Assembly: GCA_902798745.1 (NCBI GenBank)
Contig: CADBXM010000001.1
Location: forward strand, 62,001 to 126,000
Source of the DNA: an uncultured Eubacteriales bacterium
GTDB lineage: Bacteria; Bacillota; Clostridia; Peptostreptococcales; Anaerovoracaceae
DNA: 64,000 nt
Reading direction: 5' to 3'
Shown here: one piece after another, positions 1 through 28,999 of the stretch
Layout: every line of letters begins with the position of its first letter
Position numbering within the stretch: the stretch's first letter is position 1
Translations under genes and position numbers: made by a program
Notes under the pieces: generated by a model
The model's database searches: none
The model's input: the letters and a program-made list of their open reading frames with translations, nothing else
What the model was told of the DNA's origin: nothing

Positions 1-1644
1 CTGTCAAAGAGCAATGACTCAGAGAGTTTCTTCAACGCTAACCACGCTCTGCCATGGTCACTCATGGTTGGTACACTTATGGCTTCGTGGTACAACGGCG
101 CAGGAACGATGGGTACTGTCGGATATGTATGCACCATGGGCTTTGCGGCCTTCTTTATCTGGTCGATCGGATCGCACGCGGTAAGATTCCCGCTCGCGCT
201 CTGGATCGCACCAAGGATCTCAGTAAAGGCTAAGGGAACTATTCCTGAACTTCTGAGATCGCATTACGGTAAGTTCGCATCGGTCCTCGGATCTATCGTA
301 CTCGTAATCACATGTCTTTCCATCGCTGACGTAGCCGCTATCGGTTATATCGGTGAGGCCGGCTGGAATGCTAACAAGTTCGTTGCAGCGGCTATCGTAG
401 TAGCTATCGCTATCGGACTTACATGTCTTTCGGGCTTGATGGGCGTTGCCATCACAGACATGATCTTCTTCATGCTGATGATCGTATGCCTCTGCGCTGT
501 ATATCCTAAGATGTTTGCCGAAGCCGGCGGACTCAACGGATTCCACGCAGCTCTTGATACTACAGCGCCTCATATGATGACAGCGCTTGGTGGTATACCT
601 GTTGCGCAGGCTATCGTACTCGTAGTGCTCTGTATCAACCTGTATAAGGACCCTGCATTCTATCAGAGATTTGCAGCGGCCAAGACACCTCAGACAGGTA
701 AGAGAGCTATGCTGACATGCTTCTCGATCTTCATGTCATTCGACCTGGTAATGATGATGACAGGTATCATCATCGGTATGAAGTTCCCTGCAGAGATCGC
801 AGCCGGAACAGTTCAGCCTGAAGTTGAATACATCAGACTCGTACTTCAGAGCCTGCCTGTAGGACTCCGCGGATTCTTCATCGTAGGCCTCACAGGTGCT
901 ATCGTTTCGACACTCGACTCTTACTACCTCGTAGGTGGTGAGATCATCTCGAACGATATTATTTACATGCTCAGAGGGGACAAGAGACTGCCTGACAAGA
1001 CAGCTATCCTGATCACTCGTATTTCGGCAATTATCTTCGGAATCATCGGTCTTGCTACCGCTTTCCGTTTTGCTCGTGTATACGATGCATTCCTCTTCCT
1101 GGCCAGCATCTCTATGACGCTGCTCTTCGTACCTATGATCGCAGCTCTTATGTATGACGGAAAGAAGACCAATGCTGCAGGACTCGCATCCATGATCGTT
1201 GGAGCCGTTTCCTGGATCTATTTCTACTTTAAACCGATCGTTGTAGATACAGTTACAGGTCCTTATTCTATCGACCCTGTACTCATCGGACTTCCGCTTT
1301 CGTTCGTCGCATTCCTGATCGGTAACCGCTTCGGTACAGACCTTACTGCAGCAAGAAAGGCAGAAGCACTCGAGAAGGGTATTCCACTTGCTGAACTTGG
1401 TCTTGATGCTACTGAACTCACTGAGGAATACAAGAAGTCCATCAAGGTCGAGTGGATCGGAGCAGACGGTGCTCTCATCCTGCTCTACATCGTACTTGCT
1501 TGCTTCTACGGATATGGTATCCTCCACAATGTTGACTGGATCGTCGGATACGCCGCTCCTATCATCGCTATGGGTATCGTGATCTTCGTATTCGTCAAGT
1601 ACCTCACAGAGGTATTTGCTGTAGCAAAGAAATCCAACAAATAG
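1..1644 (+). CDS. Sodium:solute symporter (SSF family), 5' end cut by window
   Basis: The frame is open from base 1, so the true start lies left of the window; the first in-window ATG at 64 is internal. The residues before it, reading Asn-His-Ala-Leu-Pro-Trp-Ser, resemble the first-helix region of SSF symporters. The rest is strongly hydrophobic with about a dozen membrane segments, and a Gly-Ala-Ile-Val-Ser-Thr-Leu-Asp-Ser stretch near residue 300 matches the conserved SSF core helix. SSF proteins move small solutes across the membrane with sodium. The substrate cannot be read from sequence. The next gene encodes an ammonia-lyase-fold protein, so an amino acid or related imidazole or aromatic compound is an inference from context only. 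A strong terminator follows directly. Confidence 0.9.
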   Translation: MSKSNDSESFFNANHALPWSLMVGTLMASWYNGAGTMGTVGYVCTMGFAAFFIWSIGSHAVRFPLALWIAPRISVKAKGTIPELLRSHYGKFASVLGSIVLVITCLSIADVAAIGYIGEAGWNANKFVAAAIVVAIAIGLTCLSGLMGVAITDMIFFMLMIVCLCAVYPKMFAEAGGLNGFHAALDTTAPHMMTALGGIPVAQAIVLVVLCINLYKDPAFYQRFAAAKTPQTGKRAMLTCFSIFMSFDLVMMMTGIIIGMKFPAEIAAGTVQPEVEYIRLVLQSLPVGLRGFFIVGLTGAIVSTLDSYYLVGGEIISNDIIYMLRGDKRLPDKTAILITRISAIIFGIIGLATAFRFARVYDAFLFLASISMTLLFVPMIAALMYDGKKTNAAGLASMIVGAVSWIYFYFKPIVVDTVTGPYSIDPVLIGLPLSFVAFLIGNRFGTDLTAARKAEALEKGIPLAELGLDATELTEEYKKSIKVEWIGADGALILLYIVLACFYGYGILHNVDWIVGYAAPIIAMGIVIFVFVKYLTEVFAVAKKSNK

Positions 1645-18684: not shown

Positions 18685-18713
18685 TTGACTTTACTAATTT
18701 TCATTGCTATAGT
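18685..18713 (+). promoter_or_regulatory. Promoter of the Met-rich leader and metNIQ
   Basis: TTGACT (18685-18690) and TATAGT (18708-18713) are separated by exactly 17 bases. The predicted start near 18720 lies about 30 bases before the leader ATG, with AAAGGAG at 18735-18741. Confidence 0.85.
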
Positions 18714-18750
18714 CACTTATGAACTTATTCTATGAAAGGAGCACATTCAC

Positions 18751-18816
18751 ATGAAGAGAAACATGATGATGGAAATGGGAATGATGGGCATGTGCATGTG
18801 CAGAGCCGGTGATTAG
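18751..18816 (+). CDS. Met-rich 21-residue leader peptide upstream of metNIQ
   Basis: A short reading frame follows a strong Shine-Dalgarno (AAAGGAG, nine bases before ATG). Nine of its 21 residues are Met (positions 1, 5, 6, 7, 9, 11, 12, 14, 16), and Cys occupies 15 and 17, so 11 of 21 residues contain sulfur. It ends Arg-Ala-Gly-Asp-stop. It is expressed from its own near-consensus promoter and is followed within 60 bases by a strong hairpin, then by the methionine ABC importer genes. The composition and position match the leader peptides of his, leu, ilv and trp attenuators, here tuned to methionine. The regulatory role is inferred. A small Met-rich metal-binding peptide is an alternative but would not explain the hairpin set or the neighbour. 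Confidence 0.8.
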   Translation: MKRNMMMEMGMMGMCMCRAGD

Positions 18817-18826
18817 CATAGGATAA

Positions 18827-18908
18827 GGTCATAACGAAGCCAAACTATGAATAGTTCTCGTGTGAGAAGTAATATAGGGGCAGGTCGTTACGACCTGCCC
18901 CTCTTGTA
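18827..18908 (+). promoter_or_regulatory. Putative attenuator (antiterminator and terminator) of metNIQ
   Basis: A 12-bp perfect hairpin with a TTA loop (18876-18887 with 18891-18902) is a terminator candidate, although the following tract CTTGTATA is only moderately T-rich. Eleven bases just after the leader stop (18827-18837, GGTCATAACGA) can pair with 18885-18895 at ten of eleven positions, which would break the terminator stem. A ribosome stalled on the Met codons (18763-18798) would leave the antiterminator strand free. A ribosome at the stop codon 18814-18816 would cover up to about its first bases. Small hairpins at 18842-18855 and 18855-18868 could shape the switch. Confidence 0.65.
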
Positions 18909-18971
18909 TATTCATAACAATCAGCGTAATATTAACGAGTTCGTTGATAAACGCGAAAAGGAAGGAAACAA

Positions 18972-20042
18972 ATGGCAGAAACTATCATAAGCCTGCAGGG
19001 AGTGACCAAGGAATTCGACACCAAAGGCGGTAAGGTAGTCGCTCTCAAAGATATCAACCTGGATATAAAGAAGGGAGATTCATACGGCATCATCGGTCTC
19101 TCTGGAGCGGGCAAGTCAACTCTGGTAAGAACGATCAACCTGCTGGAGCAGCCTACGGAAGGTAAAGTCCTCTTCGACGGAAAGCTTCTGACAGGCCTCA
19201 GCCCAAAAGAGCTCAACCTTCAGAGGCGACGCATCTCGATGATCTTCCAGCAGTTCAACCTGCTGATGCAGAGAGACGCGACCGGGAATATCAGCTTCCC
19301 GCTCGAGATAGCAGGAGCTTCAAAAGCAGATACAGAAAAGAAAGTCAAGGAACTCCTCAAGGTAGTAGATCTTGAAGACAGGGCCCACTCGTATCCGTCA
19401 CAGCTCTCCGGAGGTCAGAAGCAGAGAGTCGCCATAGCCAGAGCTCTCGCTTCAGATCCTGAGGTCATACTCTGTGACGAAGCTACATCGGCTCTCGACC
19501 CGAAGACTACACGCTCGATACTCAGTCTGCTGAGGCAGATCAACGAGGAACGCGGCATCACACTGGTAGTGATCACTCACGAGATGGAGGTCATCAAGCA
19601 GCTTTGCAACAAGGTGGCAGTCATCGAAGGAGGCGAGATCGTCGAGAGGGGCGAAGTGAGTGAGGTGTTCGCGAAGCCAAAGACCAAAGCGGCCCGTAAG
19701 CTCTTCTTCCCTGACGCGACAGAACGTGAGGTACCGGAAAAACGAACTGCTGTTAAGAACCGCTTGAGACTTGCCTTCAACGAGCAGACGGCATACAAGC
19801 CTATCATCGCGAACATGATCCTGGAGATAGGCGAACCGGTCAATATGCTTTACGCCAATATGGACGCGCTGCTCGATGAGCAGAAAGGACAGATGGTAAT
19901 AGCACTGTCAGATGACAAGACCATAGCGGATAAACAAAAGGCGTTTCTCATAAGGGAGGGCGTGGACTTTACTGAGATACCGGAGGATTCAGACTATTAC
20001 GACTATCCTGTGAACGGACCTGAAGAGGAGGTGAATGATTGA
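18972..20042 (+). CDS. metN: Methionine ABC importer ATP-binding protein
   Basis: The 356-residue protein has Walker A Gly-Leu-Ser-Gly-Ala-Gly-Lys-Ser-Thr near residue 45, the signature Leu-Ser-Gly-Gly-Gln-Lys-Gln-Arg, and Walker B with Cys-Asp-Glu-Ala-Thr-Ser-Ala-Leu-Asp. A C-terminal extension from about residue 260 resembles the NIL/ACT-type regulatory domain of MetN, which binds methionine and causes transinhibition. It powers the MetI permease. It is the first structural gene after the Met-rich leader, with the next gene overlapping by one base. Confidence 0.97.
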   Translation: MAETIISLQGVTKEFDTKGGKVVALKDINLDIKKGDSYGIIGLSGAGKSTLVRTINLLEQPTEGKVLFDGKLLTGLSPKELNLQRRRISMIFQQFNLLMQRDATGNISFPLEIAGASKADTEKKVKELLKVVDLEDRAHSYPSQLSGGQKQRVAIARALASDPEVILCDEATSALDPKTTRSILSLLRQINEERGITLVVITHEMEVIKQLCNKVAVIEGGEIVERGEVSEVFAKPKTKAARKLFFPDATEREVPEKRTAVKNRLRLAFNEQTAYKPIIANMILEIGEPVNMLYANMDALLDEQKGQMVIALSDDKTIADKQKAFLIREGVDFTEIPEDSDYYDYPVNGPEEEVND

Positions 20043-20704
20043 TGGATGCTCATACATTGATTGAACTCCTTGAAGAAGGTACTGTACAAACGCTGATAAT
20101 GACAATTGTCGGCACGTTGGTCTCGTACATCATAGGACTTCCAGTCGGAGTTTCGCTCATAGTGACCAGCCCTAACGGAATAAAGCCTGTTGCTTGGTAC
20201 AACAAGATCATGGGATTCATAGTAAATGTCATCAGATCAATGCCTTTCCTGATCCTCATGATAGCTTTCATGCCATACATCAGGATGGTGATCGGGACTG
20301 GAATCGGTACATGGGCGACAACGGCAGCTCTCATACTCGCGGCCTGGCCGTTTGTAGCCAGGATGGTGGAGCAAAGCCTGCTCGAGGTAGATCCGGGAGT
20401 CATCGAAGCAGCCCAGGCGATGGGAGCAAGCAATATGCAAATAATCCGCAAGGTGCTGCTGCTTGAGGCTAGACCATCGCTTCTCAATGGAGCCGCGGTG
20501 GCAACCATCACCATACTCGGATATTCCGCAATGGCGGGAACACTTGGAGGCGGAGGCCTCGGCGATATAGCCATCAGATTCGGTCATTACAGATTCCAGC
20601 CGACGATAATGTGGATCACGATCATCGTACTTGTAGTGATCGTTCAGATCATGCAGGAAATCGGTATCAGAGTGGCAGCGAAGATGGACAACCGTATCAG
20701 TTAA
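20042..20704 (+). CDS. metI: Methionine ABC importer permease
   Basis: The 220-residue membrane protein has five or so helices and the ABC permease coupling loop Glu-Ala-Ala-Gln-Ala-Met-Gly-Ala-Ser near residue 140. The C-terminal block Ala-Gly-Thr-Leu-Gly-Gly-Gly-Gly-Leu-Gly-Asp is typical of MetI. The ATG at 20042 shares a base with the metN stop (TGATG), so the two are translationally coupled. Confidence 0.97.
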   Translation: MDAHTLIELLEEGTVQTLIMTIVGTLVSYIIGLPVGVSLIVTSPNGIKPVAWYNKIMGFIVNVIRSMPFLILMIAFMPYIRMVIGTGIGTWATTAALILAAWPFVARMVEQSLLEVDPGVIEAAQAMGASNMQIIRKVLLLEARPSLLNGAAVATITILGYSAMAGTLGGGGLGDIAIRFGHYRFQPTIMWITIIVLVVIVQIMQEIGIRVAAKMDNRIS

Positions 20705-20775: not shown

Positions 20776-21603
20776 ATGAAGAACATCAAAAGAACAGGTA
20801 TCCTCGCGTTAGTGCTTGCGCTCGCGCTTGGCGCACTCACAGCATGCGGCGGTGGAAGCAGCTCCGAGGACAAGGTTATCAAGGTAGCAGCATCGCCTAC
20901 ACCACACGCAGTCATCCTTAACTCCGACGCAGTAAAGAACGCGCTCGCGGAAGATGGATGGACACTCGAGGTACAGGAGTTTGAAGACTATGTACAGCCA
21001 AACGTAGCTACTACTGACGGAGACGTAGACGCTAACTATTTCCAGCACGTTCCTTATCTTGATGAGTACAATACTCAGAACGGAACAAACCTTGTATCCG
21101 TTGCAGGCGTACACTATGAGCCGATGGGTGTTTATGCAGGAACAAAGAAGAGCTTCGACGAGCTCGCTGATGGCGATAAGATCGGTATTCCAAACGATGC
21201 TACAAACGGCGCCAGAGCACTTCTGCTTCTCCAGGACAATGGAGTCATCAAGCTGAAAGACGACGCAGGCGTAACAGCAACCGAGAAGGATATCGTTGAG
21301 AATCCAAAGAACATCACTATCGTTCCTCTTGAGGCGGCTACTATTCCGGCAACTCTTCCGGACCTCGCACTCGGAGTAATCAATGCAAACTATGCAATCG
21401 GAGCAGAGCTCAAGATCGAGGAAGCTCTTGCAACAGAGGCAGTTGATTCCCTCGCTGCAGACACATACGTAAATGTGATCGTTGTAAACGAGGAGAACAA
21501 GGATAGCGAAAAGACAAAAGCTCTCGTAGCAGCTCTCCAGACTGACGAAGTAAAGGCATTCATCGAATCCGAATTCAACGGAGCAGTAGTTGCGAAGTTC
21601 TAG
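20776..21603 (+). CDS. metQ: Methionine-binding lipoprotein (NlpA family)
   Basis: The 275-residue protein has a lipoprotein signal ending Leu-Gly-Ala-Leu-Thr-Ala-Cys, a short Gly/Ser linker, and a NlpA-family body starting Ile-Lys-Val-Ala-Ala-Ser-Pro-Thr-Pro-His-Ala. The Asp-Ala-Asn-Tyr-Phe-Gln-His and Ala-Asn-Tyr-Ala-Ile blocks line the ligand pocket in MetQ relatives. AAGGAGG precedes the ATG. A strong terminator follows. Confidence 0.96.
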   Translation: MKNIKRTGILALVLALALGALTACGGGSSSEDKVIKVAASPTPHAVILNSDAVKNALAEDGWTLEVQEFEDYVQPNVATTDGDVDANYFQHVPYLDEYNTQNGTNLVSVAGVHYEPMGVYAGTKKSFDELADGDKIGIPNDATNGARALLLLQDNGVIKLKDDAGVTATEKDIVENPKNITIVPLEAATIPATLPDLALGVINANYAIGAELKIEEALATEAVDSLAADTYVNVIVVNEENKDSEKTKALVAALQTDEVKAFIESEFNGAVVAKF

Positions 21604-21665: not shown

Positions 21666-22367
21666 ATGGATAATATCAGAAAAGTAGCAGTTATCTCCGG
21701 CACACCGGTGGATACACAGATGGGGGTCGATTTCATCGAAAAAAAGAATTCCGAGGCGACCGAAGGGGCCGTTATATTTGACGCGCGCTATTGCCCGGTG
21801 TCAGAGGACTGCGACGCTCAGATCAGATTTCAGTACACGGATGATGACGGAAAACGCGCAGCTATGGACGCCCTCTTCGACCCCGAGATAGCGGCCGGCA
21901 CGAGAGACTTTTTCATTTACTGTAACTCTCTCTCAGGCGCGTTCGGATTCGATGCCTACGCGATGAGTAAGTCCGCGGAGAGCGGCGAAGATATACGCGT
22001 GTATACTCCGCTACAGGTTTACAGAGCGATGGGCGAAAAATATGCCCGCGTCGGAGTGATTGCGGCAAACAATATTTCCGCTCATGGTATCGAGGAAGCT
22101 TTCATGGCGACAAATCCTGATGTTTACGTGATCGGAACTGGCAATATGGCGATCGTAAGGGCCATCGAAGACGGTGTAGCTCCCGGAGAGATCGTCGATA
22201 GTTTCGGACTTGAAAAGATGGCGGCATATATGGAAGCTTGCGGCGTGGAAGCTATCGTTCTCGGCTGTACTCACTTCCCGTATTTCAAAGAGGAGCTCGC
22301 AAAAGTCACCGACCTTCCTCTGATAGATCCGGCAGACGAAATGTACCGGGCTATGCTTGACTACTGA
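21666..22367 (+). CDS. Aspartate/glutamate racemase family protein
   Basis: The 233-residue protein has the two catalytic-cysteine regions of cofactor-independent Asp/Glu racemases: Tyr-Cys-Asn-Ser-Leu-Ser-Gly in the first half and Leu-Gly-Cys-Thr-His-Phe-Pro-Tyr in the second, with a Gly-Val-Ile-Ala-Ala-Asn strand between. The Asn-Ser/Cys-Thr pairing follows the family pattern. The exact substrate cannot be read. The position directly after metQ suggests a link to amino acid uptake, but the intervening terminator weakens that. Confidence 0.88.
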   Translation: MDNIRKVAVISGTPVDTQMGVDFIEKKNSEATEGAVIFDARYCPVSEDCDAQIRFQYTDDDGKRAAMDALFDPEIAAGTRDFFIYCNSLSGAFGFDAYAMSKSAESGEDIRVYTPLQVYRAMGEKYARVGVIAANNISAHGIEEAFMATNPDVYVIGTGNMAIVRAIEDGVAPGEIVDSFGLEKMAAYMEACGVEAIVLGCTHFPYFKEELAKVTDLPLIDPADEMYRAMLDY

Positions 22368-22621
22368 TCAGAACTAGTGCTTTTGACTAAAAAACGGACT
22401 TTGTGGCGACAGTTCTAACTGCCGCTATTTTGTTTGCTGAAAACCCCCGAACAAAGGGGTGCGCACCTTTATTTCGAATGCGATTTAATATATAATCTAC
22501 TCTGTATGGGTATGCGATTATAGCGCCATGAAAACGGACGCTTCAAAACCCTAAAATAGGGGCGGGAAAGAGATGAAGCATACGGTGATCCGAAATAAAA
22601 AAATACAAAAGGATGGAAAAA

Positions 22622-25600
22622 ATGGATAACGGATTTGTCAAAGTAGACAGATGGGGCGAGTGCCTCTGGGGGATAGATGAAAACGGTAATTTGCTGATCG
22701 ATGGAGGAAAAGCTGCCTCTGTTTCGGAAACAGGTGTGCCGTGGAAAGATTTCGCGTCTGAATTGGTGACGGTGATCGCGAGCCGCAAGGTGACTTTCCC
22801 TGACGGTGCGTCTCTCGCGGGGCTCTTCAAAGGTTGCAAGCAATTGCAGAGGGGAGACCTCAGCGGCTTCGACACTTCGAATGTATCAGATATGAGTTCG
22901 ATGTTTGAAGGGTGTGTAAGACTTACAGATCTCGATCTGTCATCCTTTGATACATATGCATGCAGTGACATGAGCAATATGTTCCATCAGTGCGCTTCTC
23001 TGACTGACATGCTTATTGGAGACAGCTTCAGCACCGACGGAGACGGAAGCACCGACTGCGGCAAACTGGCTGTCAAGGAATACGGCAAGTACAAAAAAGC
23101 GAAACCATTCTCGGTCGATGGATTCAGAGTGACTTATCACAGCAATTATCCTGACGGAAATGATGCGCCGGCTGAAGAAAGACGCACTATACCGAATTAC
23201 AGATACGTGCTCGAGGAGCAGCTGTTCGATGAGCCTGATGAGTATTCGGCATTCATCGGATGGTGCGGCACTCCTGAGGGCAAAGGTGAGGTATATGAAG
23301 GTGGCTGTGAGATAGAGACTGTCGATGAGGACACAGATCTTTACGCGGTTTGGGGCAGAGTTCCTGAGATCGGCGAAATCGCCGGCCCGATCAGTTTCAC
23401 TTACGGAAGCCCTATACCGTTTGAGCTCCCTGAGATCACATCGGTCAACGACCCGCACGTAAGTGGTTACCTCGAAGTGAGCGAAACAGGCGAAGAAGGA
23501 AGCTGGGAAGCTATAGAGCACACTGCTATTCTGCCTGTATCTTACGACGGATACCTTCTGAGACTGCATGCGTCAAACAGCATAGGAGACGCAGTGTCCA
23601 ATGAGGTGAGGATCAACATACAAAAAGCCAATATAGACTCATCTTCCGTTCGCTGGGCTGAGGATGAAAACATGATCTACGATGGCAGCGTCAAGCATGT
23701 TTGGCTCGAAGGGCTCCCTGAAGGCATCGAACCGGTATACAGCGGTAACGAAGCGACGGAAGCGGGCACATACACCGCGTCCTTCGACTTTGAATTCGAC
23801 AGAGATAATTTCAATGAGCCGCTTATCGTAAGGGAGCATGAATGGACGATCCGTAAAGCCCCTCTCGACCTTTCAAATGTGCGCTGGGACTATGACGGCC
23901 CGTTCGAATACGACGGAAACAATCACGGAGTGGGGCTCAAGGGCCTTCCGGAGGGCGTGACTGCAGAATATGAGGACAACACTCACAACGCAGCCGGCGA
24001 ATACACCGCGACAGTGACGCTCCATTACGATGAGGAGAATTTCGAGAAACCTCGCGAGATCGCTCCTTGCGTTTGGAAGATAAAGAGCGCTGTGATCGAT
24101 CCGGCTGATCTCGAGTGGTCGGGATACGATGACTATGTATACGATGGAAGCGCGAAGAGCGTTTACGTTACGAATCTGCCTGATGATGCCGAGTATGAAT
24201 ACGAAGGCGCCGAAGAGATACCTGCGGGCAAATACCTCGCAAGACTTTCGCTTTACGGCAATTACGCTCTGGCAGGGCCGGCAGAGTACGAGTGGGAGAT
24301 CGAAAAGGCTTCTTACGACATGGGCGATGTTGCATGGAGCGAAGAGCAGAGCTTCACATATGACGGGGATATCCACGGTGTTCAGCTCAGCGGAATCCCT
24401 TATGGCATCGACGTGAAATACAGCGGCAACGAAAGCAGATACGCGGGCGAATACACCGCCAGAGCGACTTTCGACAATCTTGATACTCACAACTTCCACA
24501 CGCCTGAAGACATGACTCTTGACTGGAGAATAGGCAGAAAAGAAGCGGATATGTCGGGCGTCAGATGGAATTACGACGGCGCGTTCACTTATGATGGCGA
24601 GATGAAGAGGGTAGAGCTTGAGGGCTTGCCTGAAGGAATCTATGTAGAATATGAAAATGCTTCTGCATATGACGCGGGAGTCTACAACGCTCATGCTGTA
24701 CTGAAATATGACAGGGACAATATGACCGTAAACGCTCCTTCAGACTGCCAGTGGAAGATAAACAAGAAGAGGATCGACATCTCCGATGTACGCTGGGATT
24801 ATACAGATGCTTTCGTGTATAACGGGCGTGAGCAGGGAGTATACCTTCTTAACGTCCCTGAGGGTGTTGAAGTCGAATACGAAGGCAATGTGAAAGTGGC
24901 TGCCGGAAAGTACGCGGCGAGTGCCACTATGGTGCCTAATGATTCGGTCAACTACGAGGTGCCTGAGATCAGTGGCCTCACATGGTCGATCGATAAAGCA
25001 GATATCAGTCTGCCTGAACTTCGCTGGACCGACTGCTCTGGTTTCGTATACGACGGGACGGAGATGACAGTAGGTATTGAGAGCGATCTCGGAGACGATA
25101 TCGATGTCGAATACACCGGCAATACCGCGAAGACGGCAGGCAGATACTATGCCAAAGCCATTTTCTCGGCTGTCGATGACAATAATTACAAAGCGCCTGC
25201 GTCCGAGGGGTATTCCTGGGACATCGCAAAGGCGTCAAAGGATATGACCGGCGTTTACTGGGATTACAAGGGCGAGTTCGTATATGACGGAAGCATCAGG
25301 ACCGTCGGGCTCGTTAACCTCCCTGAAGGCGTGAGCGTGGAGTATGAAAACGCATCTGCTTCGGAAGCAGGCGAGTATACCGCGGTCGCGAGATTCAGCG
25401 TTACAGACGCCGACAATTTCGAGAATGATATTCCTGAGATGAGCCTCGATTGGCGCATAGCCAAGGCGACGTTCGACATGAGCGGCGTGAGATGGCAGGA
25501 GCCAAAGGAATTCACATATGATGGTGAGGAGAAAGAGGTCAGACTTACAGGTCTGCCTGATGGGCTTTCACCGGAGTACGAAGACAATTCCGCGACAAAC

Positions 25601-28600
25601 GCGGGTAAATATATCGCCAGAGCGACATTCAGCTATGACACAGCAAACTACGAAGAGCCTGCATGTCCTTCATGTCACTGGATCATCGAAAGATCACCGG
25701 TCGATATTTCCGCTGTCAGATGGGACTTTGACGAGGCCTTCGTATATGACGGCTTCGAGAAGACTGTGGCGGTCGAGAACATACCGGAAGGCACATCCGT
25801 AGTCTACTCCAACGCTTCGGCGACACGCGCGGGCACTTACGTGGCTGCTGCCGAGATCATTCCTGAAGACACAGACAACCTTTTGAAGTCGAGGATGGAA
25901 AACCTCACATGGAGGATCGAAAAGGGCGACTACGACATGAGCCATGTCAACTGGGATTATGACTGTGCATTCACTTATGACGGTAGCGAGAAAAGGGTTC
26001 TTCTCAAAGGACTTCCTGAGGGAGCACTTCCATCATACAGAGGCAATATCGCGACAGATGCCGGTACATACAGAGCGACTGTAAGCTTCAATGCAGCAGA
26101 TGGCCGCAACTTCAACACCCCTGACCCTGTAGAGCTCGAGTGGACAATAGATAAGGCTGATTTCGATATGTCGGGCGTCTACTGGGATTACGATAACGAG
26201 TTCACATATAACGGCAGGATGCATGAGGTGAAACTGAATGGCCTTCCTGAAGGACTCAGAGTGATGTACACGGACAACGCCGCTGCAGAAAGCGGAAAAT
26301 ACGAGGCGTCCGCGGAATTGCTGCCATATGACACGGAAAACTACAACGCTCCTGAGGTAGACGATTGCAGCTGGGAGATCGTGAAAGCCGATTACGACAT
26401 GTCCGCCGTAAAATGGGACTACACGAATGCGAAGATCTACAACGGAAGAGAACAGAGCGTGATGCTCGATCATCTGCCAAACGGCGTGTTCGCGGAATAC
26501 ACCGGAAACGAGGCGACAGATGCGGGCAACTATGTTGCTTCTGCTGTACTTTCCGTGGCTGATCCTGACAACTACAATCTTCCTAATGTGAGCGACTGCA
26601 GCTGGGAGATAGACAGGGCCGACTACGATATGTCGTCATGCACATGGGATTACAGACCGGGAACGTTCATTTACGATGGACGCAGAAAGAGCGTCAGCCT
26701 TACAGGGCTCCCTGAGAATGTGAGCGTGACATATAGCGGAGACTCCGCTGAGATGGCGGGTGACTACACCGCAACTGCAAACTTCACCACAAGTGACGAT
26801 AATTTCAACGCGCCTTCTCCTGCAGAGCTCGAATGGAGCATCGGCAAAGCCGACTATGACATGAGCAGCGCTTTCTGGGACTACAACGAAAGCTTCACCT
26901 ATGACGGCACGGTCAAGAAGGTTCAGCTGAACGGAATACCTTCGGGGGTATCCGTAAGTTATGAGTCGAACAGCGCCGTGGATGCGGGAGCATACACAGC
27001 AACAGCATACTTTGATATAGACACTAACGATTACAACGTTCCTGAGCCGATGAACTGCGATTGGACCATAGAGAAGGCGGATCCGGATATCCGCACTCTG
27101 AGATGGGATTACTCCCAGGCATTCGTCTATAACGGCACAGAACAATCTGTAAGTCTCGCGGGCATCCCTGAAACGCTCGAAGCAAACCTAAGCGGCAATA
27201 CTGCGGTTTCGGCCGGAGACTATATCGCTCACGCAGAGCTGATCCCGAATGATCCGGACAATTACAATGCTCCGTCTATCAGGGACTGCGAATGGAAGAT
27301 AGTGAAGGCCGACTACGATATGTCCAACGCAAGATGGGAAGGTGACACAGAGTCTGTCTATGACGGAACTCTCAAGTCCGTTGCCGTAGTCGGGCTGCCT
27401 GAAGGAGTAACACCTGTATACAGCGGAAATCAGGCGACAGACGCAGGCAGATATACCGCGTCGGCGGACTTCGAATATGATGGCGACAATTACCACAAGC
27501 CTGAGATCAGAGATTTCAGCTGGAGCATCGGCAAAGCGGTCTATGATATGTCAAGAGTACACTGGGCAGGAACTGAGGGCTTCGTCTATGACGGTGATGC
27601 CAAGTCTGTCTCGCTTGAGGGTCTCCCTGAGGGAGTAAGACCGGTCTATGATGGCAACTCGGCGACAGAGGTCGGAAGCTATGATGCTTCTGTCAGATTT
27701 GAATACGACGAGCGCAACTACTACGAACCTGAATTCGCAGGATGCTCGTTCGAGATAGAGCCTGCGGCAATAAAAATAGACGAGGACGCGGTGCAGTGGG
27801 ATTACAGCAAGCCTTTCGTCTATGACGGCAGCGAGAAGAGTATATCTATCGCGGAAAGAGTCCGCGAGCAGGGTCTTTTCGACAGACTGCGCGGCAAAGC
27901 AGCGGAGACAGAGCTCGCCGGTATCCCTGAGGGATTCGAAGTCGTCTATGAAGGAAACACAGCGACAGAAGCGGGCGTGTATTACGCAACTGCCAGGCTG
28001 ATCGATGCCGAGGGCAAAAACTACAGAGAACTTGAACTTCCTAAGTGCAAATGGGAAATACTGAAGGCTCCTATCGATGTGTCCGGAGCGAGCTGGGATT
28101 ACAGCGAACCGTTCACATTTGATGGCGAAGAGAAGACAGTCGAACTGACCGGACTTCCTGACACCGTTAAGGTGGAGTACAGCAGCAACCGCGCTCTCAA
28201 TGCGGGTGGTTATGAGGCAATGGCGACACTCGAGGCTGTCGACCCGGCCAATTATGAACAGCCTGCCCCTGTAAGCGGATGCTGGTGGCATATAGACAAG
28301 GCCATATACGATATGTCAGAAGTCCGCTGGGACTATGACGGAGATTTCGTATATGACGGTGAAGAGAAGTCCGTTGAACTTACAGGGCTTCCTGATGGAG
28401 TGACAGTCGACTACTACGTGGATAACAGAGCTATCGAAGCGGGTACATACGTAGCAGAGGCAAGACTCAGCTACAGGAACAGCGAGAATTACGAAGAGCC
28501 TGTCGTTCCTGAACTCAAGTGGAAGATCGCAAGAAAGAAGATCGACACTTCGGAAGTGAGATGGGATTACGATGACGAGACACGCTTCGTATATGATGAG

Positions 28601-28999
28601 AAGCCAAAGGAAGTCAAGCTCGCGGGCGTGCCTGAAGAGATAGAAGTGGTCTATACGGACAACAGAAAGATCAACGCGGGCACATATACCGCAAGAGCGA
28701 GGTTCATATACGACACTCACAATTTTGAGGCCGACGATATCAATGATCTCAGATGGAAGATAGCGAAAGCCGAATACGATACGTCACTCGTTCACTGGAA
28801 CTATGACGGACCATTCACATACGACGGCACTGAGAAGAGTATAGGCCTCGCGGGCGTGCCTGAATCCATCAATGTCAGATACAGAGACAACCGCGCGTCA
28901 TCTGCCGGCACATACACCGCAAAGGCGTATCTGACATACGATAACGACAATTACGAAGAGCCGGATATTGAAACGACTATAGATTGGGAGATTAGATGA
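22622..28999 (+). CDS. Giant repeat protein with BspA-like, InlB-like and 23 MBG/Ig-like repeats
   Basis: The 2125-residue protein starts with a DUF285/BspA-type segment (Phe-Asp-Thr-Ser-Asn-Val-Ser-Asp-Met-Ser-Ser-Met-Phe at about residue 82, with a second copy). It continues with one Listeria-Bacteroides (InlB B-type) repeat ending Asp-Leu-Tyr-Ala-Val-Trp near 243, then 23 repeats of about 77 residues to the end. These are surface or adhesin modules. Yet no signal peptide, lipobox, LPXTG motif or C-terminal anchor is visible. An in-frame TGA at 22586 rules out a hidden upstream signal sequence in this frame. Start choice between 22613 and 22622 is uncertain. A TATAAT at 22491-22496 may be its promoter. 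Its stop overlaps the next start by four bases. Confidence 0.88.
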   Translation: MDNGFVKVDRWGECLWGIDENGNLLIDGGKAASVSETGVPWKDFASELVTVIASRKVTFPDGASLAGLFKGCKQLQRGDLSGFDTSNVSDMSSMFEGCVRLTDLDLSSFDTYACSDMSNMFHQCASLTDMLIGDSFSTDGDGSTDCGKLAVKEYGKYKKAKPFSVDGFRVTYHSNYPDGNDAPAEERRTIPNYRYVLEEQLFDEPDEYSAFIGWCGTPEGKGEVYEGGCEIETVDEDTDLYAVWGRVPEIGEIAGPISFTYGSPIPFELPEITSVNDPHVSGYLEVSETGEEGSWEAIEHTAILPVSYDGYLLRLHASNSIGDAVSNEVRINIQKANIDSSSVRWAEDENMIYDGSVKHVWLEGLPEGIEPVYSGNEATEAGTYTASFDFEFDRDNFNEPLIVREHEWTIRKAPLDLSNVRWDYDGPFEYDGNNHGVGLKGLPEGVTAEYEDNTHNAAGEYTATVTLHYDEENFEKPREIAPCVWKIKSAVIDPADLEWSGYDDYVYDGSAKSVYVTNLPDDAEYEYEGAEEIPAGKYLARLSLYGNYALAGPAEYEWEIEKASYDMGDVAWSEEQSFTYDGDIHGVQLSGIPYGIDVKYSGNESRYAGEYTARATFDNLDTHNFHTPEDMTLDWRIGRKEADMSGVRWNYDGAFTYDGEMKRVELEGLPEGIYVEYENASAYDAGVYNAHAVLKYDRDNMTVNAPSDCQWKINKKRIDISDVRWDYTDAFVYNGREQGVYLLNVPEGVEVEYEGNVKVAAGKYAASATMVPNDSVNYEVPEISGLTWSIDKADISLPELRWTDCSGFVYDGTEMTVGIESDLGDDIDVEYTGNTAKTAGRYYAKAIFSAVDDNNYKAPASEGYSWDIAKASKDMTGVYWDYKGEFVYDGSIRTVGLVNLPEGVSVEYENASASEAGEYTAVARFSVTDADNFENDIPEMSLDWRIAKATFDMSGVRWQEPKEFTYDGEEKEVRLTGLPDGLSPEYEDNSATNAGKYIARATFSYDTANYEEPACPSCHWIIERSPVDISAVRWDFDEAFVYDGFEKTVAVENIPEGTSVVYSNASATRAGTYVAAAEIIPEDTDNLLKSRMENLTWRIEKGDYDMSHVNWDYDCAFTYDGSEKRVLLKGLPEGALPSYRGNIATDAGTYRATVSFNAADGRNFNTPDPVELEWTIDKADFDMSGVYWDYDNEFTYNGRMHEVKLNGLPEGLRVMYTDNAAAESGKYEASAELLPYDTENYNAPEVDDCSWEIVKADYDMSAVKWDYTNAKIYNGREQSVMLDHLPNGVFAEYTGNEATDAGNYVASAVLSVADPDNYNLPNVSDCSWEIDRADYDMSSCTWDYRPGTFIYDGRRKSVSLTGLPENVSVTYSGDSAEMAGDYTATANFTTSDDNFNAPSPAELEWSIGKADYDMSSAFWDYNESFTYDGTVKKVQLNGIPSGVSVSYESNSAVDAGAYTATAYFDIDTNDYNVPEPMNCDWTIEKADPDIRTLRWDYSQAFVYNGTEQSVSLAGIPETLEANLSGNTAVSAGDYIAHAELIPNDPDNYNAPSIRDCEWKIVKADYDMSNARWEGDTESVYDGTLKSVAVVGLPEGVTPVYSGNQATDAGRYTASADFEYDGDNYHKPEIRDFSWSIGKAVYDMSRVHWAGTEGFVYDGDAKSVSLEGLPEGVRPVYDGNSATEVGSYDASVRFEYDERNYYEPEFAGCSFEIEPAAIKIDEDAVQWDYSKPFVYDGSEKSISIAERVREQGLFDRLRGKAAETELAGIPEGFEVVYEGNTATEAGVYYATARLIDAEGKNYRELELPKCKWEILKAPIDVSGASWDYSEPFTFDGEEKTVELTGLPDTVKVEYSSNRALNAGGYEAMATLEAVDPANYEQPAPVSGCWWHIDKAIYDMSEVRWDYDGDFVYDGEEKSVELTGLPDGVTVDYYVDNRAIEAGTYVAEARLSYRNSENYEEPVVPELKWKIARKKIDTSEVRWDYDDETRFVYDEKPKEVKLAGVPEEIEVVYTDNRKINAGTYTARARFIYDTHNFEADDINDLRWKIAKAEYDTSLVHWNYDGPFTYDGTEKSIGLAGVPESINVRYRDNRASSAGTYTAKAYLTYDNDNYEEPDIETTIDWEIR
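23624..28996 (+). repeat. 23 tandem protein repeats of about 77 residues
   Basis: Each unit begins with a pattern like Lys-Ala-x-Tyr-Asp-Met-Ser-x-Val-x-Trp-Asp-Tyr, then Phe-x-Tyr-Asp-Gly, then Leu-x-Gly-Leu-Pro-Glu-Gly-Val, a Tyr-x-x-Asn segment, Ala-Gly-x-Tyr-x-Ala, and a closing Trp-x-Ile. The 19th unit carries an insertion of about 18 residues. Copies differ considerably, so this is old or diversified repetition rather than recent slippage. Confidence 0.9.

Follow-up and report, generated by a model that had tools for sequence, protein, structure and literature searches.

The window analysed here, 64,000 nucleotides of a contig from an uncultured Eubacteriales bacterium of the Anaerovoracaceae, carries on its forward strand the genes of a putative methionine ABC importer: metN (18972–20042), encoding an ABC ATPase with a C-terminal NIL domain, the permease gene metI (20039–20704, assigned by profile search), and metQ (20776–21603), encoding an NlpA-type substrate-binding lipoprotein, with metN and metQ assigned by domain searches of the open reading frames (ORFs). 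An Asp/Glu racemase-like gene (21666–22367; ORF and domain search) follows on the same strand and, judging from the spacing, is possibly part of the metNIQ operon. Because the MetN protein scores 341 against the NCBIfam MetN equivalog model, below its cut-off of 499.7, methionine is named as the presumed substrate only from the domains encoded (NIL in MetN, NlpA-type MetQ). Neither PF02574 (MetH-type) nor PF01717 (MetE-type) had a match in the source genome (93% complete), and the bacterium therefore probably depends on imported methionine. Downstream of the operon (22613–28999), the window also encodes a 2128-aa protein that consists, as judged by eye, mostly of similar repeats.

The original prediction placed a leader peptide and an attenuator ahead of metN, and the individual features it named were all recovered. 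These include, on the forward strand, a near-consensus sigma-70-type promoter (TTGACT-17-TATAGT with a TG, 10 of 12 consensus matches; 18685–18713), the leader Shine-Dalgarno (SD) sequence AAAGGAG (18735–18741; kept in alignment A2), a Met-rich frame of 21 codons (MKRNMMMEMGMMGMCMCRAGD*; 18751–18816, stop at 18814) with nine Met and two Cys, a terminator-like hairpin of 12 bp (18876–18902), and the metN start at 18972. The complementarity claimed between the RNA after the leader stop and the hairpin also holds: segment C (18827–18837), the proposed 5′ strand of an antiterminator, can pair at 10 of 11 positions with C′ (18885–18895) in the upper part of the hairpin. Transcription would begin at around 18719–18721, and the arrangement TTGAC-16..18-TAnnnT occurs upstream in 43 of the 44 leaders that have enough upstream DNA. 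The U-tract 3′ of the hairpin in the window is weak (CTTGTATA, four T in eight bases), at the low end of the four to seven T per eight bases seen 3′ of the terminator stem across 40 aligned rows. The 202-nt stretch from 18714 to 18915 folds better than 200 of 200 dinucleotide shuffles (z −4.5), and an Rfam scan found no S-box (RF00162), T-box (RF00230), amino-acid leader or other family at the locus.

While the hairpin and the C:C′ complementarity stand, the structure as originally described was incomplete, since three further helices are also present. Segment A (18721–18734) would form the start of the mRNA; its partner is segment A′ (18817–18830), which lies directly 3′ of the leader stop and overlaps segment C. 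Segment B, running from the end of the SD sequence to the start codon (18741–18753), pairs at 12 of 13 positions with B′ (18789–18801), the codons for the end of a Gly and Met-Cys-Met-Cys. Segment X (ATGGGAA, 18775–18781), in the middle of the Met run, pairs across the aligned rows with segment E (18855–18861), and segment D (CTATG, 18845–18849) is likewise an alternative partner of 18817–18821. Other readings of the locus were discarded. An overlapping His/Asp-rich frame from 18732 lacks an SD sequence of its own (as judged by eye), the hairpin is single-copy in the genome and so is not a dispersed repeat, and it is not the terminator of a neighboring gene; because the upstream gene, gpsA, is divergent, the hairpin has no obvious target besides the leader transcript.

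We searched for MetN in 40 genomes, the source genome included. Close matches (69–100% identity) occur in 22 of 24 genomes of the same genus (own genome counted), and among the loci fetched, one from each, the leader core precedes metN in 21 of 22; the remaining locus (L012) has only 139 bases upstream before the contig ends. Two of the 21 leaders deviate, one being cut within the leader (L013) and one lacking the SD sequence (L018). A scan of the genome collection with the pattern ATGNNNATGATGGGNATGYGNATGTGY returned 54 stretches, which overlap the same-genus set and comprise 46 leaders of the window type (44 followed by a MetN-like ORF, two at contig ends), four longer Met/Cys-rich leaders of a metQ type (three followed by a MetQ-like ORF, one at a contig end), and four stretches with no metN- or metQ-like gene following. 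In the metQ-type group, L041 and L049 both come from contig ends in the same metagenome-assembled genome (MAG) and possibly represent a single locus. By title, the 46 leaders belong to Mogibacterium sp. (18), Candidatus Crickella (3), and Clostridiales, Clostridia, Bacillota or Oscillospiraceae bacterium (25); Mogibacterium and Crickella are placed in the Anaerovoracaceae by the NCBI taxonomy. The named sources of the leader genomes are mostly the guts of goat, sheep, water buffalo and horse, and no match to the leader pattern was found in a viral collection.

Nearly all of the related leaders come from MAGs, and a few of them are defective in ways that may reflect assembly errors: L064 and L072 lack A′, C and D, L069 lacks the SD sequence and start, and L035 lacks the 3′ arm of the terminator. 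These four and L037 were excluded from the 45 rows for the counts of start frame, U-tract and folding, leaving 40 rows. Alignment A2 omits the four chance matches, the four metQ-type leaders, L074 (short) and L082 (identical to L056); A3 and R1 comprise 35 of 41 trimmed leaders. In L010, L012 and L002, the interval between the terminator and metN contains what look by eye like incomplete, degenerate repeats of the leader core, suggestive of a tandem duplication.

The leader also extends beyond the genus. A covariance model built from it matched 19 of 297 genomes of the order at an E-value of 0.1 and 27 of 296 genomes of the family at 0.05, and the matches outside the genus include Met-rich leaders ahead of a MetN-like ORF in G288, G135, G321, G310, G505, G479 and G549. 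Matches in G216, G108, G089, G233 and G173, together with a second place in G288, were set aside as chance on reading the loci. From the MetN side, 13 of 25 family genomes from other genera have a match at 1e-60. Seven of these 13 have an SD-led leader with at least seven Met, ahead of metN in G321, G135, G288, G310 and G068 and ahead of metQ in G175 and G166; one (G156) has a weaker Met/Cys leader, and in five (G171, G097, G088, G112, G063) no such leader is visible. Met-rich leaders precede metQ in L066 and L068 as well, and the terminators of the other-genus leaders G288, G135, G321, G310, G505, G479, G549 and G068 have longer U-runs. A Met-rich leader is also found in another family of the order (G035, MRANFISNTMSMYMFMRPVMRES). 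At class level, the metQ loci were taken with 1.5 kb upstream each, which is often occupied by other genes, so that the absence of a leader there is uninformative; a weak candidate was noted in another family of the class (L161, 1092–1220), with six Met in 42 codons and a hairpin, followed by a metQ-like gene.

Several gene arrangements encountered in the course of these comparisons are recorded here in their own right. In four order-mates (L025, L027, L028, L030) a metQ-like end lies upstream of metN, as judged by eye. Circularly permuted MetQ/NlpA-like proteins, with the C-terminal half before the N-terminal half, were found in L129–L134, G063, G340, G342, G374, G401, G404, G405, G419 and G444, and six of them are encoded directly upstream of metN in the family. 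At L119 (G097:C8), the MetN frame is continuous by eye with an upstream histidine-phosphatase-like ORF, giving an open frame of 630 aa (one TAG counted) that is possibly a fusion.

The leader has the features of a coding sequence. In all 40 complete rows, the start codon next to the SD sequence shares the reading frame of the Met core, and the N-terminal lengths differ by whole codons in the alignment. In other genera of the family the Met positions are fixed and the flanks drift, and leaders carry up to 10 Met. Across 11 leaders from distinct lineages, Met accounts for 76 of the 348 codons after the start, and in ten peptides chosen by hand the five invariant alignment columns are all Met. 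By comparison, the chance background of SD-led ORFs of 12–45 codons with at least six Met is six per 775,896 strand-bases (54 scan loci, leaders excluded), and on both strands of the window the leader is the sole ORF of this description. The alignment with relatives proposed in the original prediction thus turned out as it had anticipated, both within the genus and in other genera, with Met codons kept amid drifting flanks and with covarying helix arms. These sequence comparisons give good support to the leader, to its Met codons and to its main helices.

Covariation is strongest for A:A′, B:B′ and the terminator stem. Over 45 rows, these helices have 33 cells changed on both sides compared with 11.6 in shuffled alignments (0 of 500 shuffles reach the observed number), and 86.0% of their cells are paired, compared with 29.0–51.4% when the segments are slid. 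With other genera included (24 rows, seven from other genera), A:A′ and B:B′ have 37 both-side changes compared with 9.2 (0 of 500), in an alignment that was fitted to the model and leans toward it. A compensatory case in B:B′ is the replacement of Cys by Arg in L033, L076 and L078 (U-A to C-G), where the partner beside the start codon has changed too. For C:C′ and A′:D, 90.1% of cells are paired with modest covariation (6 of 500 shuffles reach this percentage and 17 of 500 reach the score); A′:D is paired in all 43 rows with letters, with one-sided changes only. For X:E, all seven pairs are possible in 40 of 45 rows, and the variants of E keep G-U or Watson-Crick pairs. X:E and A′:D together have no covariation to speak of (90–101 of 500 shuffles reach the observed values), because one side hardly varies. 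The first consensus fold (21 rows) contained X:E with A′:D instead of A:A′ with B:B′. Duplex tests of segment 2 against the terminator at single loci of the genus gave 0.12, 0.19 and 0.32 (not significant) and 0.053 over 12 leaders; outside the genus, the corresponding tests gave 0.08 (1:2) and 0.09 (2:3).

A further property concerns the SD/start region. In five of 11 lineages, its pairing with later leader RNA exceeds that of composition-keeping shuffles at p ≤ 0.05 (0.002–0.042), with values of 0.064, 0.078 and 0.116 in three of the remaining six and 0.47–0.77 in the other three. The ten lineages outside the genus give a combined p of 7e-6, and three further loci have values of 0.024–0.050. 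In a control set of 151 ordinary genes, such pairing reaches 0.05 in 4% and 0.01 in none. The partner of the SD/start region lies late in the ORF in L134 (0.004), L133 (0.116) and L132 (0.002). This pairing of the leader SD/start with later leader RNA is a new regularity, and it can be read as a leader that closes over its own ribosome-binding site.

Folding with ribosome masks agrees with a switch only partly. When the RNA of the window is emerging (3′ end at 18891 or 18895), C:C′ is at least 0.89 in 13 of 14 combinations, and once the full hairpin is present the terminator wins in every state computed; read-through must therefore be a kinetic effect, as it is in attenuators already described. 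When a ribosome occupies the stop codon with a footprint to 18827, C:C′ is 0.38 (3′ end at 18898), and with a footprint to 18829 it drops to 0.00, with the terminator at 0.95; smaller stop footprints leave C:C′ at 0.38–0.89. Across the 40 rows, a stop-bound ribosome with a footprint reaching 15 nt past the first base of the stop brings C:C′ to no more than 0.15 in 39. Placing the ribosome in the Met run and making the RNA 5′ of it unavailable gives a mean C:C′ of 0.41, compared with 0.04–0.08 at the stop, and values of at least 0.3 in 21 rows. When only the Met run is masked and the 5′ side is free, 13 rows reach 0.3, compared with 14 for RNA with no ribosome; the two states do not differ (0.28 vs. 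0.30), because the computed A:A′ helix forms around the ribosome. In these calculations A:A′ is not strictly exclusive with C:C′, and A′:D, by enclosing C, would make C:C′ a pseudoknot beyond the scoring of the folding program. A stop-dependent switch was obtained in only two of 11 leaders from other lineages (L108 and L136), and equilibrium folding with masks did not reproduce a clean three-state switch.

Taken together, these observations suggest that the leader is a ribosome-mediated transcription attenuator that reads the supply of methionyl-tRNA, with Met as the control codons, a reading to which we assign a probability of roughly 0.8. Stalling, termination, read-through, a methionine response and the order of these events are inferred. 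With charged methionyl-tRNA in plentiful supply, the first ribosome would reach the stop at 18814 and cover A′ and the start of C; the hairpin at 18876–18902 would form and transcription would end upstream of metN. When methionine is short, the ribosome would stall on the Met run, covering X and holding B:B′ open; C would be free on emergence and would pair with 18885–18895, within the upper hairpin, and transcription would continue into metNIQ. In a leader without a ribosome, A:A′ and B:B′ would shut the leader over its own ribosome-binding site, a closure that may restrict leader translation to the first ribosome, and X:E together with A′:D would make up another closed state, in which A′ is likewise engaged. 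More speculatively, the ribosome-binding site of the leader might serve as a protector strand, such that a ribosome stalled or queued at the start releases later leader RNA, which could then act in antitermination; in that case the element would signal whether ribosomes occupy its own start, read both Met and Cys, occur in several sequence forms across the family, and stand in the place that a SAM-I riboswitch takes before metN in some order-mates. We regard this extended version as rather less likely than not.

The nearest alternative, which overlaps with the attenuator reading, is that the leader senses cysteine, or Met and Cys jointly, rather than methionine alone. With an assumed background of 1.3%, the 25 Cys among the 348 codons of the 11 lineages have a p of 1e-11, Met-Cys-Met occurs in eight of the 11, and a predicted methionine leader of Streptomyces lividans, as its published peptide is given, also contains Cys-Met-Cys (PMC8079986). 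Nevertheless, Arg takes the place of Cys in L033, L076 and L078, and Tyr does so in L106 and L179; the leader of L136 has no Cys at all, and Met is three times as frequent. This reading is considered rather unlikely. Conservation of the peptide raises another possibility, namely nascent-chain arrest, in which the Met/Cys tract itself, lying in the exit tunnel, would halt translation when methionine, SAM or some other small molecule is sensed, and the halted ribosome would control the terminator. Within the genus, MGMMGM(C/R)MC is indeed nearly invariant, as is its DNA, although the scan pattern selected part of this. Across genera the peptide drifts strongly, with only Met columns invariant in the ten aligned peptides, the metQ-type leaders differ in sequence, and the B:B′ and X:E pairings explain part of the conservation at the DNA level; arrest is accordingly considered improbable.

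The covarying structure and the folding z-score of −4.5 would also be expected of an RNA-only switch (a riboswitch or a protein-binding RNA), to which the ORF would be incidental. This is hard to reconcile with the SD and in-frame start of all 40 complete rows, with N-terminal lengths that change in steps of three, and with the Met enrichment common to leaders that are otherwise unlike; there is also no Rfam match at the locus, and we consider this explanation very improbable. Composition alone might instead point to a small Met/Cys-rich protein acting in trans, for example a metal-binding peptide, given that Met-Cys-Met-Cys is suited to soft metals. The next gene, however, is always metN-like or metQ-like where it can be read (chance matches aside), and the ends and length of the peptide drift, so that hardly any weight is given to this last explanation.

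If the methionyl-tRNA attenuator is real, import in a lineage of gut Clostridia follows the charging of methionyl-tRNA, and other genes, including a metK-like one, are under SAM riboswitches; two steps of a single pathway would then each have a sensor of their own. Such a division, with methionyl-tRNA governing import and SAM its own synthesis, would make sense. SAM-I riboswitches are present in 44 of 47 genomes of the genus, and the source genome has two, one of which lies ahead of a MetK-like ORF (named by eye). The second (L094, 2679–2765; G000:C3:94178–94264, minus strand) precedes a 213-aa ORF without a Pfam match. The source genome also has two T-box-like matches, both below the curated cut-off, ahead of trpB-like and thrS-like ORFs (by eye). 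The set of leaders itself offers natural variants for testing attenuation in Bacillota.

With respect to known systems, the SAM-I riboswitch (S-box) senses SAM directly and regulates methionine and SAM genes in Bacillota through transcription termination. It is also found ahead of metN in three order-mates (L024, L026, L029) and is absent at the locus in the window. Among peptide leaders, the attenuators in Rfam are specific for His, Leu, Thr and Trp, and attenuators for Ile/Val and Phe are also known (PMC3766115). Histidine leader peptides of hisZ and hisS* are described in bacilli and are likewise cases of leader-peptide attenuation in Firmicutes, but they respond to histidine and precede synthetase-type genes (PMC2965389). 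The cysteine leader peptides described for cys and cysS genes are likewise encoded by ORFs rich in a sulfur amino acid; they differ in having Cys runs and other targets, and the actinobacterial ones have no obvious terminators (PMC1262725, PMC8632094).

According to the original prediction, a methionine leader switch on an importer was not known to be described. Peptide leaders that read methionine, as proposed here for one that recurs in related bacteria, have indeed hardly been suggested before, but a Met leader (metL) had already been predicted ahead of metNIQ in Streptomyces lividans TK24, with no clear terminator (PMC8079986). Among open-license PMC full texts, metL was the sole earlier peptide leader with proposed Met control that was found; papers by Vitreschak (2004) and Lopatovskaya (2010) could hold more. 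The two share a predicted Met leader, the same operon, and Cys-Met-Cys. The metL leader, as far as the source describes it, is leaderless, has three Met including the start, lacks a clear terminator, and is reported from one genome (PMC8079986); the leaders described here are SD-led with up to 10 Met, have a terminator and alternative helices, and occur in several genera of Bacillota, in a comparison for which S. lividans is represented by its published peptide alone.

The trp, his, leu, thr, ilv and pheA attenuators of the proteobacterial type work by ribosome-mediated transcription attenuation. The metN leader has in common with them a short ORF rich in the codon of the end product, predicted alternative pairings, and an intrinsic terminator before the structural gene, and it differs in that the predicted control amino acid is methionine and the target an importer. 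It also differs in architecture: the leader SD sequence is preceded by segment A, and the SD/start region is paired with the ORF, a self-pairing of the ribosome-binding site that would be a testable addition to the textbook attenuation scheme.
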